Shown piece by piece: positions 5,635-58,135 of a DNA stretch of 64,000 bases. The number at the start of each line of letters is the position of its first letter. The first letter of the stretch is position 1. The stretch spans positions 1 through 64,000 of the forward strand of contig RWJK01001064.1 in NCBI GenBank assembly GCA_004335835.1. The letters run 5' to 3'. The notes under the pieces were generated by a model. That model was not told the origin of the DNA, searched no databases, and saw nothing but the letters and a program-made list of their open reading frames with translations. The DNA is from Scenedesmus sp. ARA3. Lineage: Eukaryota > Chlorophyta > Chlorophyceae > Sphaeropleales > Scenedesmaceae. The position numbers and the translations under genes were made by a program.

Positions 5635-8600
5635 CATGGTTGCAGCCCAGGAGGTGATGCGGGGTGACCTGCCCGGCCTTGTGACTGTGGAGGAGGTCAG
5701 GGCGCTGGAGGTGAGGGCCGCAGGCATACAGGCATGCAGTTGCAATGTGGATGCTGTGCAGCAGAAGGGCTGCAGGGCAATGTGGGTAGCAGCCAGCCTG
5801 TGCACCTTCTGCCAACTATTGTTACAGGGGGTAACAGCTACGCTATATGCATGCTCGTTCCTGGTCCAGTTGCCAGCAATGCGGGGCACCCGTGACGCAA
5901 CCATGCTGCTGCTGCTGTTCTTTTGCCAGGCTGAGCTGGACAGCGGGGCAGGCGTGGAGGCGCTGCGCCGCTTCAACAAGGCCCTTCGCGCCGTGCCCGC
6001 CGACAAGTGGGGTGAGCAGCAGCTGGGGTGTGGTGTGGCGGCCTGCGGCAGCCAGCTGAACTAGCGTGATGCGGCAGTGTCTGTGTGTCGGCTATCCCAG
6101 CAGGTGCAGCCGCGTGGGGGGGCAGCAGAGATGAGGGCAGTGCAACAACCACAACCCTGACTGTGTGCGCAAGCAGTGACAGGGCCTGTATGCGCAGCAG
6201 TCGTGAGTGCAGTGCAGGCTACTTGACACAGCTGTTGCCAGCAACCATTGCTGCAGCACAGCTGGTCAAGTGCCTTGCTCACCATGGCCATACTCACACA
6301 CTGCTGCTGCTGGGTTGCCTGCACCCGCAGAGGCTGTGCTGCGCCCTGTGTTCAACGAGCTGTGCTTTAACCTGGAGAGTTTCAACCCAGCCTTCGCGGC
6401 ATGCCTGCTGCAGGTGCGGCATGCACACTAGGTGGTAGCAGGACAGGTGGCAGCACAGCGCATATCATGTGACATATGCATCTGTGACATATGCATCACC
6501 TCCCGAGCAAGCTGCCAGAGCACCTCTAGTAACAGTTTGCACAGTTTGCACAGTTTGCGCACGTGCGCATGTGCGTGCTGCAGGCACCTACCCAGCGCGA
6601 CATAGAGCATTGGCTAGACACCTGTTTAACTTGTTGCTGTGGCCTCAGCAATTGACGTTGCCGCAGCAGGACACGGTTCACACTGAACTTGCGCGGTGCT
6701 GCCCATCGGCCGGAGCTGCGGCTGCTTATAAATGTCAAATGCTGCTGCTGCTGCTGCTGCTGCTACTGCTGATGCTGCTGCTCTTATGCATGCGCGCAGG
6801 TGCAGCGCACCATTGGTGTGAGCGACTACGTGCGCCGCGACATGGCGCTGAAGAACCTCATCCAGCCGCTGGCGGGCGAGTACGGCATGCACAACAACCA
6901 GCCGCAGCTCAAGACCCACAGGTGCGGCGACTACGCAAAACACAGACTTTATTCTTTGTTTCCTGCCTTCTATCTGCATGTGAGCAGGCAGTGATGCTGA
7001 CAAAGGATGCGGGTGGATGTGCGCAACTGCAGCTGCACGTCAAAAAAGATCGCCCTGCAAAGTTCTGCGGTGCCTGTTAGCTTTGCCTCCTGCTGTCCCG
7101 CACTTGATGCTCCCTCAGTGCTGCTGCAAGCAGCTGACACCTCGCTGTACTGTTGTACTGCTGTACCACCTGCTGTACTTCCCATTTGCCTGCAGGGATC
7201 TGTTCTCCTACTTCTTGATGAGGCTGTTTGGCCACCCCCTGACACCTCGCTGTACTGCTGTACTGATGTACCTGCTTCATCTGTACTGCTTTACCGCTGC
7301 AGAGAGCTGTTCTCAGACTTCTTCATGAGCCTCTTCGGCTACCCCCTGCCCCAGCTGCTGGCAGACAGCCCCGCGCCCGCCGCCGCGCAGCTGCTGTACA
7401 GCCAGATGATGCGCGACATCCTGGGAGGGGGCGGCCACGAGGACCCACTGGCACAGGTGGGCCAGGGCCCGTTTTGCTGCAAGCTGTAATGTGTTGATTG
7501 TGTTTTAGTGCGTGAGCAGTGAAGTTGTGTTGACATCCTGGGAGGGGGCGGCCACAAGGACCCACTGGCCCAGGTGGGGCGTCGCCCGTTTTGCTGCAGG
7601 CTGCGGTGTTAGTGTGTTGCTTCTTTGTGCTTAATTGCTAAAACAGTTGCGTTGGCATCTGCTGGTTGAGGTGGGGCTTGCTTGCAAGCTGTTTGGTGTG
7701 CTGTTTTGATGCGTGGCGCGGCGTCATGATGCCAGCCCTCATGCTTCAGCCTTCCGCTCACAACCACTCACCACCTTGAATATCACACCAATGCACTGCT
7801 GCTGCTGCCTCTGCAGGCCAGCTACGCGCTGGGCTACAACCTGGCCATCGAGTACCTTGCGGACTATGAGAAGACGTGGATGCTGGACTCCTTCAGGGAC
7901 CTCAACGCCCGCGTGCTGAAGAAGGACATCGACTGGATCTTCCTGGAGGTGCGTTTGCCTGATGTGTGGTTTGGTCATTTGTCTGCTGCATGTTTTGTAT
8001 TGCCCAAGTGATTGGTAGTTACATGCTGCCCCGAAACCATCGACTGGATCTTCCTGGAGGTGCGTTTGCCTGATGTGTGATTTGGTCATTCGTCTGCTGC
8101 ATGTTTTGTATTGCCCAAGTGATTGGTAGTTGAATGTATCCCCAAAGCGATTGGCTGGATCTTCCTGGAGGTGCGGCACCGCGGCAGGCCTGATGTGTTT
8201 CTGGTCATTTGCTTTGTTTGTTTGCTGCGCAAGGATTTGACTGGATGTTCCTTAAAGTGGGGGGCGGCGGTTGACCCGATGTGTGTCTGGTCGTTTGGTT
8301 GGTTGGTTGCTTGCTTGCTTGCTTGCTGCGCCAGGGGTTGGATGCTCCTGCAGGTGGGCAGTACAGTGTGCATGCATGCCGCGGTGTGAAAGGGCAGAAA
8401 CAAACCCTTGCGGCTCCTGGATTCCGACTGTGTCTTATGTGCGCGCCATGTTCTGTGTGCGTGCTGTATCGCAGGTGCATGCGGAGGGCGAGGCAGAGCA
8501 CGCAGCAATCGGCCACAACGCGGTGCTCAACATCGTGCCCACAGAGCACGCGTCCATCCTGCGGGCCGCCATGGCTGACCATGACAGGGACTTTGCTGTC

Positions 8601-8639
8601 TTCTACAACCGCATGGCAGAGCTCATGGAAGGCCACTGA
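4927..8639 (+). CDS. Heme-oxygenase-like-fold (candidate diiron) protein, 9 exons
   Basis: Exons 4927-5049, 5165-5237, 5646-5710, 5930-6011, 6331-6413, 6800-6921, 7303-7456, 7817-7948, 8475-8639; all phases agree, 332 aa. Residues 1 to about 45 are basic and Ser/Val-rich, possibly a plastid or mitochondrial presequence. The rest is predicted all-helical. Near the C-terminus H280-x3-E284-x2-H287 (VHAEGEAEHAAIGH) matches the last metal-binding helix of the Haem_oxygenas_2/TENA-like superfamily of iron-containing redox enzymes. Acidic helices such as IEYLADYEKTW could give further ligands. Substrate unknown. The gene carries four separate tandem duplications, each at an exon edge (three splice sites and the stop codon). 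The splice model is inferred. Intron 1 is short (115 bases), and the donor after residue 41 was chosen because it keeps phase. Confidence 0.72.
5590..5632 (+). repeat. (TGC)n tract before the exon 3 acceptor
   Basis: About 14 uninterrupted TGC units lie in intron 2 of the heme-oxygenase-like gene, ending 13 bases before the acceptor AG at 5644-5645. It is the clearest of several sense-strand CTG/TGC tracts near 3' splice sites in this window. Confidence 0.9.
7134..7343 (+). repeat. Tandem duplication, period 105, at an exon acceptor
   Basis: Two diverged copies, at 7134-7238 and 7239-7343. Each holds the end of intron 6, an AG acceptor and the start of exon 7. The upstream copy would encode DLFSYFLMRLFGHPL, the used copy ELFSDFFMSLFGYPL, both in the same phase. 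Reading the first copy onward enters the wrong frame, and no good donor follows it, so it is most likely a dead pseudo-exon. Confidence 0.85.
7415..7615 (+). repeat. Tandem duplication, period 117, at an exon donor
   Basis: The last 42 bases of exon 7, its donor and the start of intron 7 recur 117 bases downstream (7415 and 7532) with few changes. The copy keeps the CAG|GT junction (DPLAQ). It lies in the intron when the first donor is used. Confidence 0.88.
7928..8260 (+). repeat. Three to five decaying copies of an exon 8 end plus donor
   Basis: The exon 8 end (DWIFLE) with its GTGCG donor and following intron sequence recurs at spacings of 111 and 111 bases (anchors 7933, 8044, 8155). A weaker copy lies near 8241 and a trace near 8338. 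Divergence increases downstream. Confidence 0.85.
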
Positions 8640-8790
8640 GCATGAAAAGCAGCGCAGGCTGCTGCTGCTGCTGCTGCTGAGACCATGTGATGAGGACTGT
8701 GCCGGGTTGATTGGCCACACGGCGGAGCTCTTGGAGGGCCACTGAGCAGCAAGTACTGAGCACTGAAAAGAGTGCAGGGTGCAGCAGCCG
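8605..8790 (+). repeat. Tandem duplication across the stop codon, period 106
   Basis: The C-terminal codons and stop (AELMEGH, TGA) recur 106 bases downstream as AELLEGH, TGA (anchors 8619 and 8725), followed in both by related sequence containing GAGCA and TGAAAAG. The second copy lies in the 3' UTR. Confidence 0.8.
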
Positions 8791-12087: not shown

Positions 12088-12331
12088 GCACAGCAGCAGC
12101 AGCAGCAGCAGCGGCGGCGGCGGCCGCTGCAGGTGTGTGGGAGGTTCCATGAGTTCCGGTTTGCTGGGAGAGGCTGCTGTGCTGCGACACATGACTTTCA
12201 ACTCAGGTTGTGGCTATGGTTGTGATGACCGCAAGTGCTGAGTAGCGGTTGCTTGGCCAGAGCCTGCAGCCAGGTTTTTTCCTGACAATCCACTTGTTTT
12301 ATAACATATTGCATTGTGATTTGTAGCGTAT

Positions 12332-13558: not shown

Positions 13559-13935
13559 TAGGGAAGGCCCATGCGTTGGCATGTCTCTGTGGGTCATGAT
13601 ACGATGCGCTCAGGTACCGCCTGGCCCTCCGCCGCACCACACTGTGCCTTTGTGTCAGCCGCAGCCGCGCACTGCGACACAGCACCCTCGCCAGCTGCAG
13701 GGCCGCCTGACACACTGTTGGAAGTGCTGCCTAGCTTGCAGAAATTCCCATACACCTCCCAGTGGCTCAGAGGGAAGGCCCAAGGACTGGCATGGCTCGC
13801 ATGTTTGGGGAACAATGAGTTCAGGAAGCTGTCTGAGCCTCTGCAGCTGCCGCGCTTGTGCCCAGCTTGTAGAAATACCCATACAGCTCCCAATGGCTCA
13901 GAGGGAAGGCCCAAGGGCTGGCGTGGCTCTGCGTG
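13559..13935 (-). repeat. Stop-proximal exon tail duplicated two to three times
   Basis: The end of the last BACK/discoidin exon (PWAFPLSHWELYGYF and following codons) recurs 131 bases further downstream as PWAFPLSHWEVYGNF with a different open tail. A short remnant near 13559-13590 still reads WAFP. Plus-strand anchors are GGGAAGG at 13903, 13772 and 13561. The second copy is open to a stop at 13594-13596. Confidence 0.8.
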
Positions 13936-15404
13936 GGCCCCAGCAGCAGCAGCCGGAAGGCCCTGAAGGGCATGGAGGCAGCAGGGCCGCCAATGGGCCA
14001 GCTGCCGTACTGGCCTGGCAGGCGGATGGTGGCGTCGCTGACGTGGCGGCGCAGGTCAAGCCAGTGCTGCAGGTCGTTGGAGCCCTGCAGGTGAGCAGGG
14101 AGGTGGGGTTTAGGTTTTAGGGGGTTGGTTACAGGGTTTCTTGGAGTTGCTGACGTGGTGGCACAGGTCCAGCCAGTGCGCCAGGTCGTTGGAGCCCTGC
14201 GGGTGAGCAGGGAGGTGGGTTTTTGATTTCAGGGGTTTGGTTACAGGGTTTTTTGGAGTTGCTGACGTGGCGGCACAGGTCCAGCCAGTGCGCCAGGTCG
14301 TTGGAGCCCTGCGGGTGAGCAAAGAGGTGGGTTTCAGGTTTTAGAAATTTGGGTATTGGCATCGCTGACGTGGCGGCGCAGGTCAAGCCAGTGCGCCAGG
14401 TCCGTTGGAGCCCTGCGGGTGATTACGGAGGCGGGCGTTTGGTTGGTGATTGGTTGGTGTTGGGGTATAGGGGTTTGGCATGTGGAAGTGCAGATGAAGC
14501 AGCGTGCAGATGTGAAGACAGGAGGCCATTGCATCGGGGCGCTGCACAAGCACAGCGGCCCGACTTGAGGCCGCCAAACACCGCCACAGCAAACACAACT
14601 GTGCAAGCACCCCTGCATCAACCATCTCGCAAGCTGCGTAGCCACTGCACATCATTCATCAATCAAAACAGCGCTGCATGCCTCCCAGCTGCGCACGCAT
14701 GTCAAGCAAGCATGCCTGCAGCAGCAGCCCGCGAGCTGCGCAATTTTCGCATGCCGCTACTCCAGCAGCAGCAGCAGCCTCACCTGCAGCACCCAGCTGC
14801 GCACGAAGCCGTCCTGCGAGCCGTCGTGGCGAATGGTGTAGTAGTTGCAGAGCAGGCGGTGCTGCGGGCCCAGGTCCAGCTGCCACCAGGTGCTGGGCGT
14901 TGCGGCAGCAGCAGCAGCAGAGGCGCCTGCTGCTGCTGGCTGCTGGGGTGTCCGAATGTAGCGGGGGCCGGCAAAGGAGGTGTTCAGGAACTGGCCTGAC
15001 ACCAGCGCCTGCGTTGGCAGGAGGCAGGAGGCAAAAGCAGCCATATCAGCCAGTGCACCACAATGGCGGTGGCAGCTGATGTGTGCATTGCAAGGGGTAG
15101 GCAGTGCAGCAAGCACCACATAGCAGAGCTTGTAACGGCAAGCCATGGTGCTGCCAGTAGTGCGCAAGCCGTAGCAGGCCAGCAGGCGCCTAGCAGTGCC
15201 ACCCAGCCCTCGCATGTGCTGCCAACCACTGCCCACAACACATAACCTAATCACGCATGGCCTTCTGAGCAACACCTCCTGACCATGGGTTTGCCAGGGC
15301 AATGATAGAGCTAGCCACAACAGTGCGCCACATACACTTCGACACCATACGGAACTCGCAGCAGCGCTGAACCACTACAAAACCATTCTTTATGTTTCGA
15401 TGCA

Positions 15405-15463
<59 letters not shown>

Positions 15464-15513
15464 NNNNNNNNNNNNNNNNNNNNNNNNNNNNNNNNNNNNN
15501 NNNNNNNNNNNNN

Positions 15514-15578
<65 letters not shown>

Positions 15579-19484: not shown

Positions 19485-21228
19485 ATGCTGACCTCAACCA
19501 ACAGTCGCGTTGTGAGCAGCAGCAGGTGCTCTGCCCGCTCAGCTGGAACCTTGGCAGTGAGGCCAGCCCGGGTGGTCCAAGCAAGGGCATCCAGCCGTGA
19601 CCAGAATGACGCACTGGCCTCAACCGCATTCGCTGCGACTGCAGCAGCACTGCTGCTGGTACGTACATGCTGCCAGCCCTGCCAGGCCTGCCTGCTCGCT
19701 GGAACAGCTTGGTGCAGGGTGCACCATGTGCTACTGTACCTGGTGCCAGTGCACATGTGCACCACTACGTATCCTTGCGCAACAGCCAGTGGGCAACCTA
19801 TGCATGCATATACATAGCTGTATGCTTTGCGAAATACGTTCACGTCCATTTGCTTGCAAGCCAGGCTGTGCTTGCCCCTCTCCAAGGTGCTGAACTTCGT
19901 GCTGCAACTTTGCAGGAAAGATACAGAATTTTCTCAACAACTGCTCCCCCGCTGCTTGCCTTACCTTGGCTGTCTGTGCTGCCTCTGCTGCCTCCCCACA
20001 GGTGTCCAGCCCCGTGTCTGCTGCTGAGCTGTCACCCAACCCGCTGTCAGTGACGGCCGACGGCAACATCTTCAGCAAGCTGTGGAACAAGGTGCCCAAG
20101 GCATCACCAGTCACAGAGGACCCCTACGGTGAGCGCTGCTGGTGCTGCTGTTGTATGCTGCCTGCGCATACTCACGTACTAGCAGCCACCCCATAGTTTG
20201 CTGTTCATGCATGTGTGCGCACGATAGGCACGCCCTGAAGCCATGCTAGCTGCATCTATCGCAGGCTGCAGGACATGATGGCTCAGCAGGCTACTGTGCG
20301 AATTTGTGGGTGTTGGTTTCATATGGCTGTGTGCGTGCATTTGGCGCTTGAGGGCGTTCGCCACGGACTGCTCAGTGTGCATGGTACCTCAGCAACTTCT
20401 GCTCTCCCCTAGTCAAACTTGCCGCCCATGAGAAGGTTGCCACGACCTGCAACACGCCGGCCACTGGCTGGCAGCTGTGTGCAGGAGTGTGGGACTTCCC
20501 CCACACACCTGCACGCAGCTGCATGGCGGTTTGCAGGTTGCTCCCATGCGTGTCAAACTATCGTGGACCATTGATGCCCCAGCTAGCTGCTTTACTTGCA
20601 CATCAACTCCTGCTGCTGCTTTTTCTCAACTGCTGCTGCTGCTCCTGCTTCTGCATGTTGCACACGCGCAGGCGCTAACGCCAAGGCGGGCAACACGCTG
20701 GCCAGCACCAAAACTAGTTGGCAGCACTGCCATGCCTATGGCACGACACGATGCGCAAACACTCCGGCAAACCGCCATTGCACTGACGCCTCCTCTCCTG
20801 CTGCTGCTGCTGCTCAGCAGTGCTGCTTTTATACACCTTGCATGCAGGCGTTGACGCCAAGGCCGGCAAGGCCCTGACCAGCACCAAGGCACAGCCCAAG
20901 CTGGCACCTGCACCTGATGAAGATGCCTTCGCTCTTACTGCTGCTGCTGCTGCTGCTGTTTCCTGCAGGCGCTGACGCCAAGGCCGGCAAGACCCTGGCC
21001 AGCACCAAGAAGGCCATGCCCATCATCACCGAGCAGGAGGCGGTGGCGCCGGAGGCCTTCCCCAACCCTGCTGCTTCCCGCATCCCTGGTGCCAAGCCCG
21101 CCGTGCTGGCTGCTGCGGAGGGTGACGAGCATCGCGGACCTAACAGGGGCCAGTTTGAGGGCCTCAACGAGGGTGACAGGCAGCGGCTGATTGACGAGAA
21201 GTCGCCAGCACAGGCCTCCAGGAAGTGA
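19485..21228 (+). CDS. Thylakoid-lumen-targeted protein of unknown function, 3 exons
   Basis: Exons 19485-19658, 20002-20128, 20969-21228; 186 aa. The first about 45 residues are Ser/Arg/Ala-rich without acidic residues (plastid transit peptide). A hydrophobic stretch follows, AFAATAAALLLVSSPVSA, with a VSA-A signal-peptidase site near residue 65, so the protein should be delivered to the thylakoid lumen. The mature part of about 120 residues is polar and probably largely disordered (NIFSKLWNKVPKAS, ADAKAGKTLAST, NRGQFEGLNEGDRQRLIDEK). No known domain. Exon 3 is preceded by two degenerate copies of its own acceptor region. The used copy was chosen because only it reads to the stop without losing frame. 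Localisation is inferred from presequence type only. Confidence 0.72.
20665..21020 (+). repeat. Three copies of the exon 3 acceptor region
   Basis: Copies whose exon part begins at 20672, 20848 and 20969 (spacing 176 and 121). Each has CTG-rich intron sequence, a CAG acceptor and codons for G-(A/V)-(D/N)-A-K-A-G and L-(A/T)-S-T-K. All three would splice in the same phase. The first two lack a plausible downstream donor, and the second reads into a stop at the third. Confidence 0.88.
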
Positions 21229-30972: not shown

Positions 30973-31007
<35 letters not shown>

Positions 31008-32642
31008 GCCAGGCAGTGCGGCAGACTCAGTGGCCCTGCCAGCTGCTGATGAGCCGACTGTGACAGGAAGTTCACCTGCCTCGCGCAGCGTCACTCCACC
31101 ACCCACGCCAGCTGGCAGGTCTGCTGCCTCTGCTGCTGTGGGGCCAGACAGAGCACGGCTGCTCTGCAGTGCATCTGTGCCAGGGACAGCAGCGCTGCTG
31201 CTGGTCCTGCTGCTGATGTGTGTTGCTGGTGCCACTGAAGCTGGCAGGTCAGCTGCTGCCACTGCACCTGAGGCAGCTGGTGACACAGCTTGCAGGAAGC
31301 CACCTGCTACTGCTGCTGCTGCTGCATCAGACTCTGCTGGCAGTGCTGCAGACTCTGTTGCAGCGCCAGCTGCACTCGAGCCGAACACAACGGGCGCCGC
31401 TGCTTCACCTTTGAGCGTAGCACCTGCACCAACAGATGCTGGCAGGTCTGCTGCCTCTGCTGCTGTGGGGCCAGAGGGCAGGCGGCTGCCCTGCAGTGCT
31501 GCTGTGCCAGTAGCACTGATAGCTTCTGCGCCTCTGTTGCTGATTCTTGCTGCTGCCATTGAAGCTGGCAGGTCTGCAGCCATGCTGCCACCCCTGCCCG
31601 CTGCCACCACACCCGGCAGGAACTTCTCAGCGCCTGCTGCTGCTGTTGCGGCTGATAGGGCAGCAGACTCTGTTGCAGGGCCTGCAGCGCTGGATCCCAC
31701 CACCAGTGGTGCTGCTGCTGTGTCCTCCAGGCCTGCTGCTGCTCCCACTGATGCTGGCAGATCAGCCAGCTCTGCTGCTGTGTAGCCAGTAGGCATGTGT
31801 AAGTGTGGCGCAGCAGCAGCAGCAGCAGCAGGCTCTGCTCCGCTGCTGCTTGATGTCCTGCCCAGATTGAGTCTGGTGCCTGTCACACCCTTTGCTACTG
31901 CTAGGGAAGGCGGCAGGTCTGAGGCTGCAACAGCAGCAGAACCTGCCGATGCAACAGCTGGCACAACCTCACGCACTGCCCCTGCCTCTGATGCTGCTGC
32001 TGCTGCTGCTGCTGCTGGGCCAGGCAGTGCAGCAGACTCAGTGGCCCTGCCAGCTGCTGATGAGCCAATAGTCACAGGCAGCTCCTCAGCCTCGCGCAGC
32101 GTCACGCCGCCACCCACGCCAGCTGGCAGGTCTGCTGCCTCTGCTGCTGTGGGGCCAGACAGAGCGCCGCTGCTCTGCAGTGCTGTTGCTGCTGACTCCT
32201 CAGCCTGAGGTGCTACGGTAGCACCAGCAGCAACTGCACCAGTTCTTGCTGCTGCAAGTGAAGCTGGCAGGTCTGCAGCCATGCTGCCACCCCTGCCTGC
32301 TGCCACCACAGCCGGCAGGAACTTATCATCCTCTGCTGCTGCTGGCAGGGCAGCAGACTCTGTTGCAGGGCCAGCTGCTGATGAGCCGACTGTGAATGGC
32401 ACTGCCTCTGCTTCTCTGAAAGTGACGCCACCACCGATCCCAGCTGGCAGGTCTGCCGCCTCTGCTGCTGTGGGGCCAGACGGCAGGCGGCCGCCCTGCA
32501 GTGCTCCTGTTGTTGACCCAGCAGCAACTGTGCTAGTTCTGGCAGCTGAGCCACTCTTTGCTGCTGCCATTGAAGCTGGAAGGTCTGCAGCAATGCTGCC
32601 ACCCCTGCCTGCCGCTACAACAGCTGGCAGGAACTCCTCTGG

Positions 32643-32675
<33 letters not shown>

Positions 32676-35600: not shown

Positions 35601-36037
35601 TCCTGGGAGGCACGGAAGCGCGCAGACAACAACGTTATGCAGCAACTGGTCCAGCCACACACCAACCAGCCAGCAGCCACCCCACCCCGCCTGCAGGCCG
35701 TGCGCCTCTGCCTCTGCCAATACACAGATGTACACAGACATGCCAGCAAGGCAGCACCCCAACCCCACCTGCAGGCCGTGTGCCTCTGCCTCTGCCGATA
35801 CACAGAAGTACACAGACCTGCCAGCAAGGCCGTACTTTCAGCCTAACCCACCTGCAGGCCGTGTGCCTCCGCCTCTGCTGCTGTTGCGCGGGCCTGCTCA
35901 GCCAGCAGCAGCCCCTCAGCGCCGGCAGCGCGCCCCATCAGGGCAGCAGCCTGGCAGGACAGCCGTGCCTCGTCAGCGGCCAGGCGCGACAGCGCGGCAG
36001 CGGCAGCAGCCTCCCTGCACGCAGCACATCGTGGCAG

Positions 36038-42267: not shown

Positions 42268-45200
42268 TTATGCCTTTGACCTTGCACGTGCTGCGCTGCG
42301 TGTTGTGACCGTGGCCCTGGCACCAGCACCAGCATCTGCTGCTGCTGGGGCCGGTGTGGCGCCGCCCGATGCTGCTGCCTTTGCTGCAAGGTACGCCTGC
42401 TTCTCTGCTTCTGCCTCCGCAAACTCTGCGCGCATCTTGCTGATGTCAAAGCCCTCCCAGGCAGAGTGAACCACCTGCATATGAAGCACAGCAGAACATG
42501 CAGCACAGCAGTCAAATCAGCTGGCAACAAAGCAGCTGCTGCGTGATGCTAATGCTAATTGGTGCAATTCAATCAGCTTGGCAGAACAGCTCGTCAGTGG
42601 GTAACTTGCTGCTGTTCGCCAAGCGTCCAACAGCTGCCTCAATGCTGCTACCATGAGGCCTTAGCCTGAGCACCCTTCCAGCAACTGCAGCTGCCCACCT
42701 TGTTCTTCTTGTTGGCGACCCACACTGCGCTGTTGACCTTGAAGCCACTGCCAAAGCCTAGCTGCCACACGCGCTCGCCAGCGCGCACGCCCCTGAAGCT
42801 CTCAATGAACGCCAGCACGTACCTGCACACAGTTACACACAGTTGCACACAAGCAACATTATTATTGCGGCAGAGCAGATCAACACTGACTTCGCATCTC
42901 TCACAGCTGGACAAATGGTGCTAGGGCGGCACTGCCGGTGATCATGCCAGTGCTGGGGCTGATGCAGCAGTGCGCGCATGTGGCGGTACATGCTCACCAT
43001 ACAGGACAGACATCGTTCCATTTGCAGAGCTGCTGACATGGCGTGTCAAACATCAACAAGCAGCTGCTTTTGCTGATGACTTTTGCCACTCACCATATGC
43101 TGGTGCTGCTGACGTTGCCAAAGCGGTACAGCCCTGCCCTGCTGGGCTCCATCAGCTCTGTGCTGAGTGCCAGCTGCTTCTCCATGGTGTCCAGGACAGC
43201 GCGGCCACCTGCAGACGCGTCAGCAAGCCGTCAGCAAGTGTCCCACAACCACAAAGCTGCATGGTCATGATATGTCACATAAGTATACTGATTGGCGACT
43301 GCTAAAAGCGACGAGCTCTTCAGACAATTGTAAACCTGTACCGGCATACTGCCGTTGTTTCACTTGGTCACAAACACCCAACAGCTGACCACTGCTATGC
43401 TTGAGTTGATTGAATACTACTGGTCCAAGCTATGCTTGGGTTGCTTGAATACTACCTGCCGATCGCGTTGATGCTATGGCTTGATGGGTAACATGATGAG
43501 CTGACCACTGCCTCCGGGTTATACACACTCCCAGCTCTCGGCACCACCCACCTGTGTGGATGCAGATGTGGTCAAACGCCTGCCCGAAGTCCGGGACGTA
43601 CGCCTTCACCTGCTTCGGCCCCATCAGCTGCCGTGCCACCAGGTTGAAGGCGAACAGCAGCTGCTCGCTCAGCGGCAGCACCTTGGGCCCCAGTCGCGTC
43701 ATGTTGATCTTCAGCGCCGCGCCAGCCACGCTCATGAGCTCCTTGCCCAGCCTCACGCCGCGGATGCCCTTGTCATCCTCCATCTGGTACACGCAGCCGA
43801 ACGCCTCGTCGGAGGACACCGTGGTGCGCACCAGGTGCTTGAGCTCATACTTTGCGCGCCGGGAGTCCTTGCTCTTGTTGCTGAGCAGGATGGCGGCACC
43901 GTTGCTGCGGAAGATGCAGTTGGGCACCAGCATGGAGCGGTCGCAGCCCGGGTACCAATTGTTGGTCAGGTTCTCGTGGCTGACCACCAGCGCGTAGCTG
44001 TCAGGAAACAGCTGCAGGGTCTGACGCGCCAGGTCGATGGCAACAAGGCCTGCACAGACACACGCGTACGGCGCACGGCGTTGTGATTGGTGTGCATACA
44101 GCAGCAGTTTGAACAATTGTGCAGCAGCAGGCAGGTCAACGATGCCTGAACATAGAACATGGATTGCTCAGCGCAAGCAAACATGGCATGTCACCAACAG
44201 ACATTGACGTAGCGTACCTGCTGAGCAGCCCATCCCTCCCAGGTTGTAGTTGAGCGTGGTGTGGGGCATCTTGAAGTGGTGCATGATGGTTGCACTCAGG
44301 CTTGGTGTGGGGTTGAAAAGGCTGCTGTTTGTTATCACCATGCTGATTTGGCGAGGCTGCACACCTGTACACAAGCACATGAAATGGCCAGAGCATAACG
44401 GTGAGCGCAGTTCCTGCCAACGTTGGGAGCACCGTTTAGGTTTCATACCGCTGTCGCATGAGTGAAACCACCACTTCCAGCTGCTGTTACCAGGTCAGCT
44501 GCTACTGCTGCTGCTGCTCTGATGGCTCATTATGCGGAAGTAGCCTGAGGCAGCTGCCAGCATATCGAGCCGCCCAGCACGTCACGGCTGCTCACCTGTC
44601 TTGTTAAGCAGGTCCTTGATGGCTGAGAAGCAAGTAACCTCAAACTCCTTGCGAGCGTGCTCGTAATCAAAGTACTGAGGCTTGGAGTACAGCCCTGCAA
44701 TACAGAAGTGCAGAACAATGTTGCTGTGTTAGCATGCACAGTTGATGCTTATGCCAAGGCTTGTGGTGACACATCAGCGATGCTCTGTGCACCTCGGCAA
44801 TACCCTGTACATGAGTTCGAGGCACGCCTGTCATTTACAGCACGACATGACTGGTTGTGCTGCTATCGCTTGCAGGAACGATCCATAAAACATCATGTGT
44901 GACGTTGCAGGAGAGTTGAAGATGTTTTGAAGCAGGTACATGACTAGCTGTGCTACGAAGCCTTGCAGGAACGCTCCATGATACATTGACAGACACTCAA
45001 GAGGTTGCACATGTGTCTCATAGAGTCGTCGGCTAACCGCACATGAGTGCAAGGTATGCGCGCACTTGAAGCCACTGCATGACTGGCTGTGCTGCAAGCG
45101 CTTGCAGGAACGCGTCAGAACATGCTGGCAGCAACTCACAAGGCGGCACATATGTCTCATCACCAAGACCTGAGCGGTACAGGATCTTCTTCTGGAAGTC

Positions 45201-48512: not shown

Positions 48513-51500
48513 ATGCAGCTCGCTTCGGAGCGACTCCATGAGAGCTCGCGTTTCGCCAAGAGCCAGGGTTTCTGCTGCAAACTGCACACCCCTCTGCCCA
48601 GGCACCTTGCTAGGAGGCAGCTGGCTAGCAGCGTGCATGCTCTGCCGCTGAACGAAATCCATACAGAGCTACACACTCATCTGTCAGCAGCATTTGACCT
48701 GGCAGATGCTGCAGCAGCTGCTGCCGCATCTACAGACAGCAGCAGCAGCAGTGGCTTCCTTGCACCGCTGACAGACACACTTGAGACGGTGCTCAAGTCA
48801 ATTCAAACAGAGCTGGACAAGCTAAAGGTGCCATACAGCTATGGCTACTCTATCCTTATCCTGACAGCTCTGGTCAAGCTGCTGACGCTGCCACTGACCA
48901 AGAAGCAGGTGGGTGTTGCATGTACATTGCAGACGGGTTCCTGCAAGTGCACTCAGTATGCGTGACATGTAATAAAAGCAGGTGGATGGATTCCCAGCAG
49001 CTGTCTGTAGCAGCAGCAAGCAATCTATGTAATTAAGTGTCAGTCACCATGTGGGTGGACCTGGCACAACTGTAGTCGCTCAGCCGGTGTGGCCACTCAA
49101 GGCCCTGGAGGCAGCACTTGTCAGGAGAAAATTTCAAGCTGTGATGTTCTCAGGCCACAACGCAGCTAGTTTCCTGCATGTTGCACCTGCTAGCAGCGGT
49201 GCAGCAATGTCCTGCAAGCATGCCTGGTGCGTGGAGCATTGCTGCTCCTGCGCTGCTGCAAGAGCTCAGCTGTGAGCTGAGACACAGCCGGCAATGTGTG
49301 CACCTCGCAGTGTATGGCATAACGAGGACACTTTGTTCTCAGATCAGGACATGCGCAGCCTGCAGAGCGTGCAATTGCTTTTTTGTATCCTGCACATGTG
49401 TGCACAGGTGGAGTCATCTATGGCTGTGCAGTCCCTGAAGCCGCGCATTGATATGATGAAGGCGCGCTATGGTGATGACCAGGCCAAGATCAAGCGCGAG
49501 ACAAACTTCCTGTACGAGCAGGCGGGCGTCAACCCACTGGCAGGTGGGGCAACTGTTGTGTGCAGCAGCTCAGTGGGACTTGCTTGCAGGAAACACTTGC
49601 AGGAAGCACCTGCTGGGACGCCTGTGTTTTATGCAGCAACAGGAGTTGAGCTAGGTGCTGGCAAGACTGGGCTACTACAAGGGCTGGTGCTACTCAGAGG
49701 CAGTTCATGGCTCGAAGACGCATGCCACCAACAGTGACAAGAAGTGCTACAGATGCTGCAGTGTTGCAGGACAGCAGGAGGCGCAGCACCACTGGCAGCC
49801 TGCCAGTTATTGAGATACTTCCTGGGATGCGTTAGGAAGCAGCCACCAAGAGGGTCCCAGAGCATGCGCAGCTGGTCAGCAGCACACACCTCATGAATGA
49901 CACCGGCCAAACTGCACAGTATGTGATGCCTCGACCTGCTGCTGACTGCTGGCCGTTGCTGCGCGCCCTGCATCTTGCAGGCTGCCTGCCGTCGATTGTG
50001 ACCATCCCCATCTTCATTGGGCTCTACCGCTCACTCACCAACGTGGCCACAGAGGGGCTACTAGACACACAGGTGCGGCTGCAGCTGCTGCCGGTGGCAG
50101 CAGTGTGTGTACCATATGCAGCACATGCGTGTTTTGTAACAGCAGCAGCAGCAGCAGCAGCAGCTGCTGCCTCGCACACAGCCCATGCCACTGTCGTTGG
50201 CTTGCTCAACGATAGCAGTGCAGTGAACAGGCGCAAAGAGGCGCAGCACCCTTCTTGAGCAAGCGAGATGCGAGGACTGAAGTGTTGATATGGGTGACAA
50301 GCTGAGTAACATACTAACATACTTCCTGTTGACCGATCGACTTTCTTTGATCTTCTGTTCCTGCAGGGCTTCTACTGGATCCCCAGCCTGGCAGGCCCCA
50401 CCTCCATCAACACACGCGGCACAGAGTGGCTCTTCCCCTTTGTAGACGGCGCTCCAGCCAGCGGCTGGGACAACGCCTTGCCCTACCTGGTGCTGCCGGT
50501 GCTGCTGGTGGCGTGCCAGTACGTCAGCAGCAGCATCATCTCGCCGCCGATCGACCCGAATGCGGAGAACGCCAACACGCAGCGCGCGCTGTACACGTTC
50601 CTGCCGATGATGATCGGCTGGTTTGCGCTGAACGTGCCGTCAGGCTTGGGGCTGTATTACCTGGCCAACACAGTGATGACAACGCTCATCCAGGTGCGCA
50701 GTGCAATGAAGTGCAGCATAAAATGGTTGACTGGCCTGTGTGTATTGAGCTGTGCCGTCAGGCCTGGGGCTGTATCACCTGGCCAACACTGTGATGACAA
50801 CGCTCATCCAGGTGCGCAATGTACAGCAGTATGATGAAGCGCTGCATTGACTGACCTACGGTGGTTTTAGCCGTGTCATACAAGTGCTGTACTACCTAGC
50901 CAACACTGTGATGACAACGCTCATCCAGGTGCGCAGTATGATGAAGTGCAGCATACAGTGATTGACTGGCCTGTGTGTGTTGAGTTGTGCCGTCAGGCCT
51001 GGGGCTGTAAGAACTGGCCAACACAGTGATGACAACGCTCATCCAGGTGCGCAATGTACAGCAGTATGATGAAGCGCTGCATTGACTGACCTACGGTGTT
51101 TCTAGCCGTGTCATGTAACTGCTGTACTACCTGGCCAATACAGTGATGACCGCGCTCATCCAGGTACGCAGTGCGATGAAGTGCAGCATACAGTGATTGA
51201 CTGGCCTGTGTGTGTTGAGCTGTGCCGTCAGGCCTCGGGCTGTACTACCTGGCCAACACAGTGATGACAACGCTCATCCAGGTACGCAGTGTGATGAAGT
51301 GCAGCATACAATGGTTGACTGGTGTGTGTGTGTGTTGAGCTGTGCCGTCATGCCTGGGGCTGTATTACCTGGCCAACACAGTGATGACCACGATCATCCA
51401 GGTGCACAGCAGGATCGATTTTGGCGACAGCTGGCCTGAGGTTGTAGCTGCAGCATGGCCTCAAACAAGTATGATGATGAGCCATCATCATTGGTGACAG

Positions 51501-51980
51501 GGCTTGCTTGTGGGATGCTAGACTTGCGCTTGCTTTGTGCTTTGCCATCGTCCGTCTTGTCACTAAGCCCTAGCAGTCCTCGCTTTGTGATGCTATGCGT
51601 GCATCCATTCATGCATCTCTGCCTGCTGTGCTGCGCTGCAACAGGTGTGGCTGCGCAAGCTTGGCGGTGCTGACGTGCAGATCAACGAGCTGGGGCCGAT
51701 TACAAAAGTCGGCACAGGCAGGCGCATGGGGCAAGCTGCATCAGATGATGACGTCTGGAAGCCCAGCGCAGCATACCAGGCCTCAATTGAAGCAGATGCA
51801 GCGGCAGCGGCAGCAGCAGCAGAGGCCGGCGCAGCCAACGCAGCAGCAGGTGCACTGCCTGGGTTAGAGCAGGCGGCAGCAGCAAGCAGCAGCAGCCAAG
51901 GCAGCTTACCCGCGGGTGCGCGCTGGGCACGGCGGAAGCGTGCAGCTGCGCGTCCGGCAGCAGCACCAAGCAGTGCGTGA
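48513..51980 (+). CDS. ALB3: ALB3/OxaA/YidC-family thylakoid membrane insertase, 5 exons
   Basis: Exons 48513-48908, 49408-49543, 49981-50072, 50367-50693, 51645-51980; 428 aa. ALB3 inserts light-harvesting and other proteins into the thylakoid membrane with cpSRP. The first about 60 residues are a basic, Ser-rich transit peptide. The YidC/Oxa1 core runs from about 85 to 320: YSYGYSILILTALVKLLTLP, a cytoplasmic-loop-like MAVQSLKPRIDMMKARYGDD, QAGVNPLAGCLPSIVTIPIF, GLYRSLTNVA, YLVLPVLLVACQYVSSSI and ALNVPSGLGLYYLANTV. The stromal tail is Ala/Ser-rich and ends in a basic stretch (ARWARRKRAAARPAAAPSSA) that could be a cpSRP43-binding-type motif. Plastid rather than mitochondrial Oxa1 is favoured by LFPFVDGAPA and the overall match to ALB3. 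The paralogue (ALB3.1 or ALB3.2) is not resolved. Intron 4 holds a large tandem array. Confidence 0.92.
50640..51415 (+). repeat. Seven-copy array of the ALB3 exon 4 end plus donor, period 117-120
   Basis: Anchors CTGGCCAA (or variant) at 50661 (used exon), 50779, 50896, 51014, 51131, 51249 and 51369; spacings 118, 117, 118, 117, 118, 120. Each copy repeats the codons for LGLYYLANTVMTTLIQ, the CAG|GT donor and about 70 bases of intron. Copies are mutually very similar, implying recent expansion or homogenisation. Confidence 0.96.
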
Positions 51981-53135
51981 GCAAGTGCTGTGGGGTGGAT
52001 GGGGTGGTGATAGCTCCGCTTTCACAGCAGCTGCTGTGCTGGGGGCGTACAGCTGCTGCGTTCCCCAGCACACAGCTGCTGTGAACGTGGAGGCAATGTT
52101 GGTGGCAGCGTGGCAGGCTCGTCAGCCGGCTGCAATGCATGTTGGTTCACAGTTTGGGTGTTAGTGGGTGTTACGAGCGTGGCTGCAACGGCGGCGAGCA
52201 GCTGCAGGGTTGGTTGGGCCAGAGCATGTCCTTGCGTGCCAATCTGCAGATCGTAACAATCGTGCAGATCGTTGTGTGCGGAGTTAAGCTGTGATGTTGG
52301 TGCGCCATCTCCAGGTGCAGGCGCTGCAGCACTGGCCAGCAGTCTGCCAGGCAACCCGAACTGTTGCTGGCAGCGGTAGCTGCTACAAGGCGACTAAGCG
52401 CTGGCATGTTGTACAGCTGCATTTTCAGGCAGGGAATCCAGCAGTGCACATGAGGGCGCTGGCCTTGAGCCCGGCTCAAGCTGCCCAGGCTGGCCAGCCA
52501 ATATTTGCCCGCTCTTCAGTTTTGTGCAGTGCGCTTTGTGCTGGTTAAGTCATGTAAGTGCAAGCTGCCCACTGTTCGCACGAAGGTGGTTTCCTGCAAG
52601 CTTCTGCATGACACTAGCCGTTGAGCAGCTGACTTGCGCGCACCAGACGCACACTTCTAGATGTGAGTACGCATTATGTTGCATTGATGCTGTCGTGATC
52701 TGCAATGTCTTTCCTGCAACTCATAATACTACCAGCCTGGGCTGTCCTGAGCCTGAGGCTACCAACTAGCAAATTCAAAAGGGTTTGGCAGAAGGTCTGG
52801 GTCGCCTGCAGACTGTGTTTTCCGTGCAATTAGGCGCATATGCAAGCTTGATAGACACAATTATGGCATACATTCATCCGCGCTCCGCCCAGCTGCTGTG
52901 TTGGCCAGGTCAGCAGTTACCTCTAAGCGAGGCAAGTAACATAAGTGCTGCCGTGCAAGTCGCTGTATGCTCACGAACAGCTACCCTCCAATACAATTGA
53001 TTTAGTGTTGCAGCCGCCGTCAATGCTATTGCTGTGATTGGGGTTCCGTGTTGCTGCTCTCGGGTATCCACTTGAGTTGGCAACTGTAGCTGCAGCATCA
53101 GTGACGTCACAAAAAAACATTCAAAGAACTACATC
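51981..53135. other. ALB3 3' UTR and intergenic region
   Basis: G/T-skewed 3' UTR, then about 0.5 kb upstream of the oxygenase gene. TGTAA at 52553-52557 is a candidate ALB3 poly(A) signal, rather distant. No credible gene. Confidence 0.5.
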
Positions 53136-53387
53136 ATGTCGCTGCTCGGGCCGGTTCTGCAGCGAAGGGTCTGCAGCAGGCCCTGCAGCAGCAGCAGCAG
53201 CACTAGCAGGACCCTGGTGACGCGTGTTTCAGCAGTGGCAGGTGCGCCACCAGGCGCAAATGCCACTGCCGGCCCGCCCACAGAGATTGTGCGCATCAAC
53301 CCACAGCTGCTGGAGGCTGGCGGGCTGGACCCTAGCAAAGAGGCGCCGCAGAACATTGTGAATTTCAGCGGTGAACACGCTCTTGCA

Positions 53388-53447
<60 letters not shown>

Positions 53448-54048
53448 CCAGGAGCAACTGCACCAACCAGTCCTGTGAGGACTCAGAAAACAACACTGTG
53501 GGCCGTGTCCTGTTGTCGCTGGATGACTGGCTCCCATTACCACCACCAGCACGCTGCAACTGCTCTACACGTCCCCACCTACCCCTGCTTGCACACTGTA
53601 CATGCGCGTACCTGATGTCACACATGCCCTTTGTTACCAACAACCTCACAACATTTTTATAACTGTTATATTTGTGTTATAACAATGCAGAGATGCTGGC
53701 CAAGGGCTTCCTGCCAGTCAACCTGAGCCTGCCAGGGCTGCGGGTGCAGAACATTGACCCTCCAGTGCTCACAGTGGAGCAGTTCCTGCCTGGCGAGGTG
53801 TGTGACGCACTGCGGCAGGCAGCACAGGCCTCAGGCAAAATGAAGGTCTCAGGTGTGGGAGGCACTGGGGACCTGAAGGAGGACATCAGGACCAGCAGCA
53901 CACTGGCCATCACTAAAGAGGTGAGTGGGGAGGCAGCTGGGGAGTTGGCAGCTTGGAGTGCACAGCAAATGACAGCAGGGTTGGTTAGCAACAGAGTGGG
54001 GCATGTATCAGGGTGAGGCAAATCATGCAGTGTCGCAGCCACCACCAC

Positions 54049-54079
<31 letters not shown>

Positions 54080-55480
54080 AGAAGAATACCGCTCGGTGTC
54101 GTTGGTCTGCTGCCACCCACACAACCAGGGAGCGAAGTGATCAATTTGGCACCTTGCATGCCCACTGCAAGCCATCACTGACTGTCATGTTGACGATGTG
54201 AATGGGCTTGCACCTGCCCTGCTGGCGTGCCCAGGTGCTAGCAGACTGCCCGGAAATCAAGCCCCTGCTGCAGCAGCTGCTGGACCGGGCAGTGCAGCTG
54301 CTGGGCGATGAGCTGGACACTGCTGCGCTGTCAGGCATGCAGTTTGTGCGGCCTACTGCAACCACGCAGCTGGCCCCTGAGCTGCCACAGATCGCTCGTT
54401 ACCTGCCAGGTACGTGAGTAGGTGAAGTAGGTGAAGTTTGTGTGGTGTGTACTACACAGTGTGTGGCATGCAGTCACAGATCCTGGCTCCTTTGCAGCAG
54501 GCATGCCCTTGAAAGCATGTATCTGTCACTTGTCTGTGGTCTGAAACGTTTGATGAAAAACCATGCCCGTCTCTAAGCAGGCAGCAAACCCATTTTCAGG
54601 CAATTTCTCTGGCTGCTGCGTGCAGTCCAGCACTTTCTGCCCCACGCCCCTGAGAGCATGCCTCTGGCACTTTTCCGTGTCCGTAACGAATCAAAACATC
54701 ATCATCATGTGCGTCTGGAAGCAAACTAACTGCAATCCTCTGGCTGCTGCGTGCACTGCAGGCCAGCACTTCTTGTCCCATGAGGACGGCTTCCCCTCAG
54801 CCATTGCCCTAGACAAGGGCTACCAGCGGCGCGCCACGCTGCTGATCTACCTGAATGACGTGCCGCAGGGCGGTCAAACACAGTTTGACCACCTAGGGTT
54901 TGGGGTGCAGCCGCAACGCGGCAAGGCGCTGCTGTTTTTTCCCTCCTTCAGTGGCGGCAAGTCTGACGCGCGGTGCATGTGTGGCGCCGCCGGCAGCCCG
55001 TGCTGTGCTAGATGATGTGCAACAATGTGTGTCACAAAACACAATGCGTGTATGGTGCGGTGTCTGTGTGACGGGTTAACAGTCAAGCCTACATGTGTGG
55101 CTGCAGGCGTGTGCAGCTGGTGTCGCCAGTGCTGCCAGGTGGACTGCAAGGCATGTGGTTGTGCTGTGCACGCATCGTATCAGCTATGTATGACGTAAAA
55201 AAAACCATGCTGTGTCTGCAGAATGTACTCGTCCCAACAGACTGTTTTGTTATGGCTGTGCATTTTACTTTCCTTGCTGGCTTGCAGGACGCTGCACACC
55301 GCCGAGGATGCAGCTGAGGGGGCAGAGAAGTGGGTGTTCCAGCTGTGGCTCTGTGCAGGCCTGCCTATTAGGCCCAAGGTGGATGCTGCTGCCATGGCAG
55401 CGCAGCAGCTGGCGGCACAAAGGAAGGGAGGAGTGAGCCCGCAGAAGCCCAAGCGGGCCAACAAGAAGAAGCAGCGGTGA
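53136..55480 (+). CDS. 2-oxoglutarate/Fe(II) oxygenase, prolyl 4-hydroxylase-like, 5 exons
   Basis: Exons 53136-53370, 53691-53920, 54235-54409, 54762-54972, 55288-55480; 347 aa. Residues 1-35 are Arg/Ser-rich and look like an organelle presequence. The P4H-type double-stranded beta-helix fold occupies about 95-310. It opens with PPVLTVEQFLPGEVCDALRQ, a DLKEDIRTSSTLAI segment typical of P4H, then the iron ligands H220-x-D222 (FLSHEDGF) and distal H287 (TLHTAED). K298 in EKWVFQLW is the expected 2-oxoglutarate-binding residue. GGQTQFDHLGFGVQPQRG and LLFFP also fit. Substrate (collagen-like, hydroxyproline-rich or other protein) unknown. The basic tail KPKRANKKKQR is unusual. Exon 4 has an upstream duplicate of its acceptor region. 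Confidence 0.88.
53387..53442 (+). repeat. (CAG)n tract in intron 1 of the oxygenase gene
   Basis: About 18 CAG units on the sense strand, 17 bases downstream of the exon 1 donor. The orientation is opposite to the CTG tracts found before acceptors. If intron 1 were retained it would add a poly-Ser run. Confidence 0.9.
54600..54800 (+). repeat. Duplicated acceptor region of oxygenase exon 4, spacing 131
   Basis: CTCTGGCTGCTGCGTGCA followed by (G)CCAGCACTT(T/C)-TG-CCC occurs at 54607 and 54738. The upstream copy retains a CAG-like acceptor but its exon part is degenerate. Confidence 0.75.
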
Positions 55481-56105: not shown

Positions 56106-57899
56106 ATGCAGGCACTGCGAGGAGCACAGCAGACCAGCTGCAGCTGCAGCAAGCAGCAGCAGCGCAGCGCCACCACCAGCAGAACTGTGCGGCTGTTGGC
56201 CAAGGCCACCTCCCAGCCTAACCAGCAGCAGCAGCAGCCATCATTCGCAAGCACAGCAGCACTGACAGCTGCTGCAGCAGCTACAGTCCTGCAGCTGTGC
56301 CTACCAGCAGCTCCGGCACTGGCGCAAGTAGCAGCAGCATACAGCAGCAGCAACACCACCGCTGTATCAGCAGCAGCATGGCAGCCAGTGCTGGGTGATG
56401 TGGCAGCAGTGGCTCAGCTGCCTGCTGACCAGGAGGACTTTGCCACTGAGATCCTCACTGAAGAGCTTGCACTGCCCCCTCAGCTCATGGACTTCATGGA
56501 GCTGCTGCAAAAGGTGAGAAGCTTTGTTTGTGTTTGTTACACATGGAGGCCAGGCATTTCCAGTAGAACTGGCGTATCATACGGGCCGGACGACGAACAG
56601 CAAGAGAAGCAGCCCAAGAAGCAGCAGCAGCAGCAGCACTTGCACAGGCGCGTATGCAATGCATGCAGCGTGCTGTCCCTTGGTGTGTGCATCGGCATCT
56701 GCGTCTGTGCTGTACCCCACAGCAGCAGAGAAGGCAGCGACTCCTCATGCACCATAGCAGGGGTGATAACATCCTGGGGCCGGCCTAGGGCTGTGTTACC
56801 CCCTGCTTACAAATTTATTGCAAGCAGCCCGCTATGCTTTAAGAAAAACATATTTTACAAGCTCTCAATCATCCTTCCCCGGCTTCCACTACCCATCTAA
56901 TCTTCTGCCCTTGCCTACTCGCTTCCCACCTCGCTTCCCACCTCGCTCCCCGCAGGGCCCTGTGAAGGACCTGAACAAGCTGCAGGCGGCGCGCCGCGCG
57001 GTGGGCTTTGAGCGCTCGCCTGACGGCCGCGTGCTGCTGCTGACGGAGGACGGCGAGCCCTTCCAGGTCAAGAATGACATGGGCGTGCCGGGGCTGCTGC
57101 TGCTGCGGTGCGCATTAGGTGGCGGGCTGCGCGGCGGGCTGGACGATGCAGCAGACTTGCTGATGTTTGCCTCTACTGCCAGCTGCCGCGCTGCGCTATG
57201 CTTGTGTATGTAGCTGTGGTGTCATCATTGTATCTGCCAGTTTTGCCTGCTTTTGTCTGGTGCGTCGACATGCTGCTGCCTCAAACAGCTGTTGCTTTAA
57301 CCTTAAGGTTAGTGTAAGCTGCTCGCAAGTGATGCTGGCGGCTTCTGCTACTACCTGCCGCGTTTCGATTCTGATGCTCTTGTGCAGATTCACTCGTTCG
57401 CTGTACGCATGCTGCTGCCTCACATCGACGGCTGTTACTTGGTGGCTTGGCTGTGTTATGCTGCCTGCAGGGATGTTGGAGGCTTCTGCTACTACGTGCC
57501 GCGCTCCGACAGCGATGCACTGGTGCATTGTTTGCAGCTGCCTAACACTGTTGCTGCCTGTTTGGCTGCGTGATCGCCTGCAGGGATGCCGGTGGCTTCT
57601 GCTACTATCTGCCGCGCTCCGACAGCGATGCGCTGGTTCAGATCGACCTATCTGACGATGCAGTCGTGGCTCAGCTCTTTGCCAACCATGCTTGGGAGGA
57701 GCTGGTGGAGCCGCTCGAGGTTCTGGCAGACGACCAAACCCCAGCCGCCGGTCAAAGTAACGGTCAAGATAACGAGTACGGGCGGCTGGAGCAGCTGCGG
57801 CTGACGGAGCGGCAGTTCCGGAGCGTGGTGAGCCTGGCGGCTGGCGGGCAGGAGCTGCCTGAGGAGCCGCTGGGGCAGCTGGAGAGCCAGGAGCAGTAG
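56106..57899 (+). CDS. Thylakoid-lumen-targeted protein of unknown function, 3 exons
   Basis: Exons 56106-56513, 56956-57107, 57584-57899; 291 aa. A basic, Ser/Gln-rich transit peptide (1 to about 45) is followed by a hydrophobic stretch, AALTAAAAATVLQLCLPAAP, and an ALA-Q signal-peptidase site after residue 73: a bipartite lumen presequence. The mature part is compact and conserved-looking: LPPQLMDFMELLQKGPVKDL, SPDGRVLLLTEDGEPFQV, GVPGLLLLRDAGGFCYYLPR and LSDDAVVAQLFANHAWEELV, with a polar tail. No family recognised. Exon 3 is preceded by two copies of its own start. The nearer one also splices in phase (RDVGGFCYYVPRSDSDALV) and could be an alternative exon. The frame upstream of the ATG has no earlier ATG. 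Confidence 0.74.
57325..57645 (+). repeat. Three copies of the exon 3 acceptor region
   Basis: GGCTTCTGCTACTA anchors at 57340, 57481 and 57594 (spacing 141 and 113). The middle copy has an intact CAG acceptor and the same phase as the used copy. The first lacks a good acceptor. Confidence 0.9.
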
Positions 57900-58135
57900 C
57901 TAGTGAAGTTGCACACGAATTGCATGCATGCACTCATGCGCCGTGGTTGGAAGGCTCTAGCAGCGCAGAATCACGACCCCACAGCAAGAGAGTGCTTCCT
58001 CTGGCTAGAGTTTCAGTCACAGCAGTCGCATCAGTTGATCAGTGTGGCAGCTGGGGTGTCTGAGCTGCAACAAATGGCAGGAGCTGCCTGAGAAGCCGCT
58101 GGGGCAGCTGCAGAGCCACCAGCAGTAGCGCAGTA
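57852..58135 (+). repeat. Stop-spanning duplication, spacing about 229
   Basis: The last codons and stop (ELPEEPLGQLESQEQ, TAG) recur at 58081-58128 as ELPEKPLGQLQSHQQ, TAG in the 3' UTR. Downstream sequence (GGCTCTAGCA, TCAGTTG and similar) also repeats weakly up to about 58350. Confidence 0.8.

Follow-up and report, generated by a model that had tools for sequence, protein, structure and literature searches.

Exon-edge duplications in the window

The window analyzed in this study covers the initial 64 kb of a Scenedesmus sp. ARA3 contig that is 77 kb long; the assembly comprises 87.3 Mb in 1567 contigs. Among the protein hits that carried organism names, those from green algae (Haematococcus, Elliptochloris, Coccomyxa) ranked at the top. 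Metagenome sources also contain relatives in which the exon protein is ca. 95% identical. Short tandem duplications lie at the ends of many predicted exons in the window, including an exon of an ALB3/OXA1-type insertase gene (Table 1). The copies sit within predicted introns or past the stop codon. The first-pass annotation had listed 13 sites at which duplicated units were held to straddle an exon edge. A local direct repeat was present at all 13, as detected by the scan or by eye, and a predicted exon edge was included in the repeat at 12 of them, the exception being 44848. At the weak site near 54600, ca. 26 bases of the exon head were found by eye to be repeated at ca. 75%.

Table 1. Local direct duplications in the window, with the predicted exon edge concerned
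Feature	Positions	Strand	Remarks
Acceptor-side duplication, two copies, 107 bp	7134..7348	+	Functional exon start 7303; TRF, diagonal scan, gene model; strong
Donor-side duplication, 117 bp	7405..7611	+	Functional exon end 7456; diagonal scan; strong
Donor-side array, 111 bp, two good and decayed copies	7916..8312	+	Functional exon end 7948; strong
Stop-side duplication, 106 bp	8606..8762	+	28 nt of coding end repeated beyond predicted stop
Stop-side duplication, 131 bp	13720..13937	-	Best view of the site noted earlier as 13559
Acceptor-side array, 112 bp, four copies (intron tail and exon head)	14019..14455	-	Functional exon begins 14084; strong
Acceptor-side array	20667..21014	+	Copies 121 and 297 bp upstream of functional edge 20969
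Donor-side array, three copies, about 78-83 bp	35656..35886	-	Exon 35852-36014
Three degenerate direct copies, spacings 93/139/232	44833..45124	-	Wholly within one predicted intron, 44695-45139; exon edge unsupported
Donor-side array, ALB3/OXA1-type insertase gene	50626..51422	+	Seven copies of exon tail and donor; period 118, higher-order 235; strong
Weak acceptor-side repeat, mostly intron tail	54600..54790	+	Script: intron-tail similarity only
Acceptor-side array, 113 and 141	57269..57708	+	Copies 113 and 254 bp upstream of functional edge 57584; strong
Stop-side duplication, 229 bp	57869..58137	+	50 nt at 92%

Exon edges were predicted using our own hidden Markov gene finder, which was trained first on long open frames and subsequently on the models it had itself predicted. 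The signals obtained were CAG^GTG[A/C]G for donors and CTGCAG^G for acceptors (^ marks the junction), and the median lengths of exons and introns were 141 and 269 nt. Neighboring genes are merged by this program. Three edge regions were also compared with homologous proteins; all other edges, stop codons included, are predictions of the gene finder alone. A malic enzyme fragment aligned to solved malic enzymes across the copy-bearing acceptor without an insertion. In ALB3/OXA1-type homologs, the sequence TTLIQ^VWLRKLGG runs uninterrupted through the donor that is trailed by six extra copies. The SMC1 product aligned to SMC1A (PDB 7w1m) apart from extra pieces; one of these is a second VVVEDRKAGFACIDYLKAS piece, and the extra piece at query positions 795-822 contains a second RFRDM.QLS piece. 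At these checked ALB3, malic enzyme, and SMC1 edges, the copies thus lie outside the conserved protein. The possibility that the copies are micro-exons was considered and rejected: several copies had been called as small exons, and two of those, in SMC1, are insertions absent from SMC1A. Copies of this kind resemble small exons and misled the gene finder in SMC1, a caution for annotation generally.

Distribution of the duplications

A further 250 kb outside the window was examined, consisting of C1435:1-200000 (as twenty pieces) and one 10-kb piece from each of five other contigs. This sample is not random, 80% of it deriving from one contig; with the window, it amounts to 314 kb. Duplication clusters were collected with a diagonal scan that was blind to genes and from which low-complexity windows were excluded. 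Such windows made up 29% of exons, 14% of introns, and 9% of intergenic DNA; because they are commoner in exons, the filter should not favor edges. In the main enrichment test, predicted exons shorter than 60 nt were counted as intron because the gene finder had taken SMC1 copies for small exons.

The scan yielded 80 local duplication clusters in the 314 kb, with a smallest period of 70-160 bp in 60 and other periods in 20. Of those 60, 52 contained an exon edge, five were intron-only, three exon-only, and none intergenic-only; uniform placement of the same 60 spans gave expected values of 27.6, 13.5, 6.7, and 12.2, respectively. In the window alone, an edge was present in 10 of 14 clusters (5.8 expected, P 0.018). 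Outside the window, the count was 42 of 46 (70-160 bp; 21.6 expected, P 6e-11), and it was 31 of 35 (15.9 expected, P 6e-8) when the richest fragment, L032, was left out of the 250 kb. When pairs were scored individually, and not as whole clusters, 44 of 59 had an edge (22.9 expected). By the same single-pair scoring, 2 of 7 had an edge at periods of 40-69 (1.6 expected) and 11 of 14 at 160-299 (7.3 expected).

The first-pass annotation had named as contrary to its proposal the outcome that such duplications are just as frequent in introns and intergenic DNA; this outcome was not observed. In the 250 kb outside the window, three clusters were intron-only (10.2 expected) and none was intergenic-only (9.6 expected). 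It had also been allowed that the concentration at edges might partly reflect ease of recognition. Slower decay of exon-derived sequence does contribute; given the deficit of intron-only and intergenic-only clusters, it is not the sole cause. The edge-duplication pattern is therefore real and extends beyond the window.

Among TRF arrays with a period of 80-250 and at least 84% matches (triplet-rich rows having been removed from the list beforehand), 8 of 10 contained an exon edge. The remaining two, in L016 and L019, are truncated where the fragment stops, and translation located the matching exon in the next fragment. Thus arrays whose whole unit is at least 84% alike also occur at edges, and persistence alone may not explain the bias.

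In an edge-centered test, a copy was found in the neighboring noncoding DNA at 63 of 774 edges (8.1%), a few of which belong to predicted exons that are copies themselves. By type, copies accompanied 24 of 350 acceptors, 31 of 343 donors, 7 of 45 stops, and 1 of 36 starts. Control positions, which include some inside edge arrays and in repeat-rich proteins, had copies in 65 of 2068 cases in introns, 15 of 1216 in intergenic DNA, and 77 of 1478 inside exons. In the examined parts of the genome, many exon ends thus have one or more copies in the intron or 3' tail beside them, typically ca. 118 bases off, and spare splice sites are common.

The copies are local direct duplications and not scattered exon fragments: exon ends matched the adjacent intron directly in 40 of 583 cases, compared to 0 of 583 in inverted orientation, 0 of 583 for a random intron, and 2 of 497 for the next intron of the same gene. 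The preferred period, put earlier at 104-121 bp, held with a slightly broader spread (median 117.5 bp, quartiles 107-128, for the 60 clusters in 314 kb). Exon-seeded offsets outside the window (n=63), each being that of the best match per edge and not necessarily of the nearest, numbered 2 at 50-79, 37 at 80-150, 5 at 151-199, 12 at 200-270, and 7 at 271-359. The second hump is as two units would give.

Composition and divergence of the copies

Noncoding similarity of at least 20 nt accompanied the exon part in 33 of the 63 edge/copy pairs. In 26, the noncoding match ended 2-9 nt past the junction, the exon part being 72-98% identical (mean 0.89); four pairs were intermediate. Among 64 acceptor and donor hits, 31 had ungapped exon-seeded similarity that ended between -2 and +9 nt relative to the junction; it extended beyond this in 16 and stopped inside the exon in 17. 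The exon extent of the copies varied from 24 to 98 nt. That breakpoints lie at a set distance from the splice site, with less exon in donor units, was an impression that the exon-seeded scan did not confirm. Exon identity was the same whether the noncoding side aligned (0.897, n 32) or did not (0.892, n 26; P 0.85), an equality that simple decay would not give.

When noncoding copies were compared with one another, their exon-derived parts were 0.875 alike (a figure somewhat inflated, as copies were chosen by exon similarity) and their flanks 0.617; the baseline for unrelated intron starts was 0.50. Of 21 arrays, 19 were usable, the flank being too short in two, and the direction was the same in all 19; some arrays share a cluster, so not all are independent. 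Spacers that looked unrelated retained residual similarity in 11 of 26 cases at P <=0.05, and in 6 at 0.01.

In 15 of 17 hand-picked arrays, the flank was shared better among the true edge and inner copies than with the outermost copy. Clear flank homology (z >3) joined the true edge and inner copies only in eight arrays, both these and the outermost copy in three, and the outermost copy only in two; it was found in neither in four. Judged from these alignments, the commonest pattern is that expected of a putative old duplication with later growth of inner copies. In 6 of the 17 arrays, the flank pattern was unlike that expected. In the two clearest arrays, the L016 stop array (stop 3783) and L009 (0-based edge 3981, minus strand), the outermost copy matches the others almost perfectly in its exon part and has an unrelated flank, with an abrupt change between them; an equally good reading of these copies is that the copied segment had its end at that point originally.

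Differences between edges and copies fell on the three codon positions in the ratio 71:45:130, and 109 of 214 changed codons were nonsynonymous. This pattern is close to that of one constrained and one free copy. Second positions differed less than first (45 vs. 71), a hint of some constraint on the copies. At a few loci, among them L032 edge 358 and L014 stop 8971 (6/6 each), all differences were at third positions with no amino-acid change. Protein constraint on the copies was rejected as a general rule, given the codon figures above and the presence of stop codons in a few copies. The AG or GT was retained by the copies in 40 of 47 cases. Functional splice signals in the copies were also considered and rejected: 39 retentions were expected from the general identity of 0.82, and there was thus no excess. 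Preserved reading phase adds nothing further, because a copied exon edge carries its phase automatically.

Origin of the arrays and related systems

The earlier proposal was supported in part, namely for recurrent short tandem duplication with the extra copy in an intron or 3' UTR and for a preferred period; intron gain and a supply of alternative splice sites are hypothetical. The explanation that we favor, and hold with moderate confidence, is tandem duplication in which the extra copy, concealed by splicing or by a stop codon, is tolerated and afterwards exchanges sequence repeatedly with the functional exon. Short segments, typically of ca. 118 bp, would be duplicated head to tail, locally and directly. 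Units that reach from coding sequence into an intron or 3' UTR could persist, the extra copy being untranslated: splicing would keep using the exon-proximal site, or translation would end at the first stop. Retained arrays may grow again from within. Gene conversion or unequal exchange may keep the exon-derived part close to the functional exon as the noncoding parts drift, and exon-edge arrays would thereby outlive wholly noncoding duplications. We infer the gene conversion, the order of events, and the indifference of splicing to the copies. Exchange is favored because a single duplication followed by neutral drift should leave flanks and exon parts with almost the same similarity, and many pairs are otherwise. 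With no rule of protein constraint and no excess of AG or GT retention, old duplications whose exon parts were kept alike are likewise favored. Exon parts that are more alike than flanks in every usable array would be the mark of concerted evolution, a mark that is not specific to conversion. The narrow peak of spacings is a feature for which the favored model does not account.

Alternatively, the duplication itself may be aimed at exon edges, for example where transcription or splicing gives rise to breaks or template switches, so that the splice signal forms the limit of the copied segment. This is a tentative possibility, considerably less probable than tolerated duplication with exchange. 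It would explain both the 31 of 64 acceptor and donor cases in which similarity stops between -2 and +9 nt from the junction and the deficit of noncoding-only clusters, none of which was intergenic-only; the sharp copy ends are fitted equally well by either explanation. The two arrays of nearly identical copies in L009 and L016 start and finish with exon sequence, and the clusters are strongly concentrated by gene or region (chi2 76.9, 24 df, P 2e-7; 11 in L032, 8 in L016, and none in 11 of 25 fragments), as aimed duplication would also have it. Against it, about half of the pairs (33 of 63) include at least 20 nt of noncoding sequence, some seemingly unrelated spacers are homologous, and the exon extents are spread as random end points would give. 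Predicted stop edges, which have no splice site, are also duplicated (L016, L014, and window positions 8606, 13720, and 57869), which argues against splicing as the sole guide; a process that recognizes exon edges would be required. A specific form of the idea, which we regard as rather doubtful, is a lineage-specific mutational process that duplicates exon edges as such, directly, at ca. 118-bp spacing, ending near the splice signal, concentrated in certain genes, and perhaps coupled to transcription or splicing. If it were true, such a process would continually enrich introns in spare splice sites, from which new introns and alternative exons could be built.

It is unlikely that duplication is uniform and that the bias is one of detection only, with exon-containing copies decaying more slowly and hence being seen. 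Similarity is indeed lost faster in the noncoding parts. Uniform placement, however, predicts ca. 20 noncoding-only clusters in the 250 kb, where three were observed, and the edge bias is also present among the TRF arrays of at least 84% matches (8 of 10, the other two being cut by a fragment end). By reasoning, moreover, one free and one constrained copy should slow decay less than twofold.

That the copies are functional, as alternative or decoy splice sites or as in-frame alternative exon edges under selection, is improbable. The preservation of exon-derived parts in noncoding copies and the few loci with silent third-position differences only (e.g. in L032 and L014) would suit such a role. 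The nonsynonymous changes in half of the changed codons, the stops in a few copies, and an AG or GT retention equal to general identity speak against it, as do the many spacings that are not multiples of three (e.g. 118, 113, 121, 107) and the homologous proteins that are without the copies at the checked edges.

That introners, mobile elements that make introns, were inserted here and duplicated their targets is very improbable. An unrelated spacer between copies of the same exon edge does resemble an insertion with a long target duplication; the repeated edge, however, is of variable length (24-98 nt), and no dispersed element was found by searching the genome with the ALB3 array or by comparing spacers within the 314 kb. 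The 821-base ALB3 array, in a genome-wide search that skipped simple repeats, matched itself only. When 61 spacers were compared within the 314 kb, seven matches of 26-57 nt linked different fragments and 17 reached other sampled fragments; these are taken to be TGC-rich low complexity, and no spacer family common to many unrelated loci was present in that sample. A genome search with the L032 array returned 149 matches, the best besides itself being 104 bases at 80%, and these are taken to be mostly low complexity. Introners (PMC9860276) do not fit; near-identical sequence at many unrelated sites was found neither with the ALB3 array genome-wide nor among the 61 spacers of the 314-kb sample. 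An assembly artefact is the least credible explanation, since most copies differ by a few to 25%, occur in unrelated genes, and follow a gene structure that the assembler does not know.

The origin and lengthening of introns is an old question. Among known systems, the human interferon-induced gene 6-16 has a minisatellite that gives multiple splice donors, in one gene and with a short unit. The donor-side arrays described here likewise carry several donors in tandem; the pattern here covers many genes and has long units. The closest precedent is the potato RdRp gene, in which a tandem duplication over an intron-exon boundary produced a new intron between the copies, with RNA evidence, and in which a second, 83-bp duplication lies inside the first intron (Ma, Lan and Niu 2016, PMC4974935). 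As in that gene, our acceptor arrays consist of intron tail and exon head in tandem, with copies carrying the parental acceptor; unlike that single gene, many genes are affected here, at donors and stops too, with up to seven copies and a preferred spacing. In the general model of intron gain by tandem duplication (PMC3443670; for Drosophila, PMC2891723), an exonic AGGT is duplicated to yield an intron one unit long. Common to that model and to the present arrays are short genic tandem duplications that splicing would mask at the level of the mRNA. What is duplicated here, in contrast to an exonic AGGT that serves for both splice sites, is a pre-existing exon edge, frequently together with intron flank, and the copies lie within introns already present. 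In Chlamydomonas and Volvox, also green algae, tandem repeats are concentrated towards intron ends near the junctions, in a survey of units of 1-50 bp only (PMC3887541); the edge-bearing units of ca. 118 bp fall outside that range.

A genome-wide pattern of exon-edge duplication was described in none of the literature matches listed, among which the potato report (PMC4974935) was the sole description found of an exon edge crossed by a tandem duplication. Events of this kind are thus known, and the present finding is a variant that affects many genes. What is newly observed is that noncoding copies remain similar in their exon-derived parts and not in their flanks, and that similarity often stops just past the splice signal. 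With a copy at ca. 8% of tested edges, the rate, size preference, fate, and splicing effect of such duplications would be measurable in one organism. Copies of 97-100% identity, such as those in L009, suggest that the activity may be ongoing.

Relatives of the ALB3 exon

An exon of the ALB3 gene was found almost identical (93-95%) in three database proteins of metagenomic source, P0007, P0009 and P0011. In all three, reading continues beyond the position of the ALB3 donor into quite different sequence. This divergence past the donor suggests that introns turn over rapidly among close relatives.

Predicted genes in the window
Gene	Position
UbiA-family prenyltransferase	710-3005
ALB3/OXA1-type insertase	48513-53188
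2OG-Fe(II) oxygenase domain protein	53189-55476

Distribution of duplications

The highest density among the sequence examined, eleven duplication clusters in 10 kb, was observed in L032 (C801:40001-50000), a fragment of the same genome read outside the window; these clusters lie in the region of a gene whose product carries an M16 peptidase domain. Few of the duplications lack an exon edge; one that does is an intergenic direct repeat at window positions 59328-59709, which was detected by the diagonal scan and has a spacing of 264 bp.

Repeats within predicted genes

A unit of ~330 bp is present in ~12 tandem copies at window positions 30545-34618 (minus strand) and is coding according to the gene model, so the predicted protein would contain repeats of ~110 residues. 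In L028, another fragment from outside the window, a long stretch of coding sequence (L028:3529-4787) consists of tandem repeats of a 42-bp unit. Within a predicted gene, at window positions 15406-15585, a stretch that translates as X is flanked on both sides by CA/AC dinucleotide runs.
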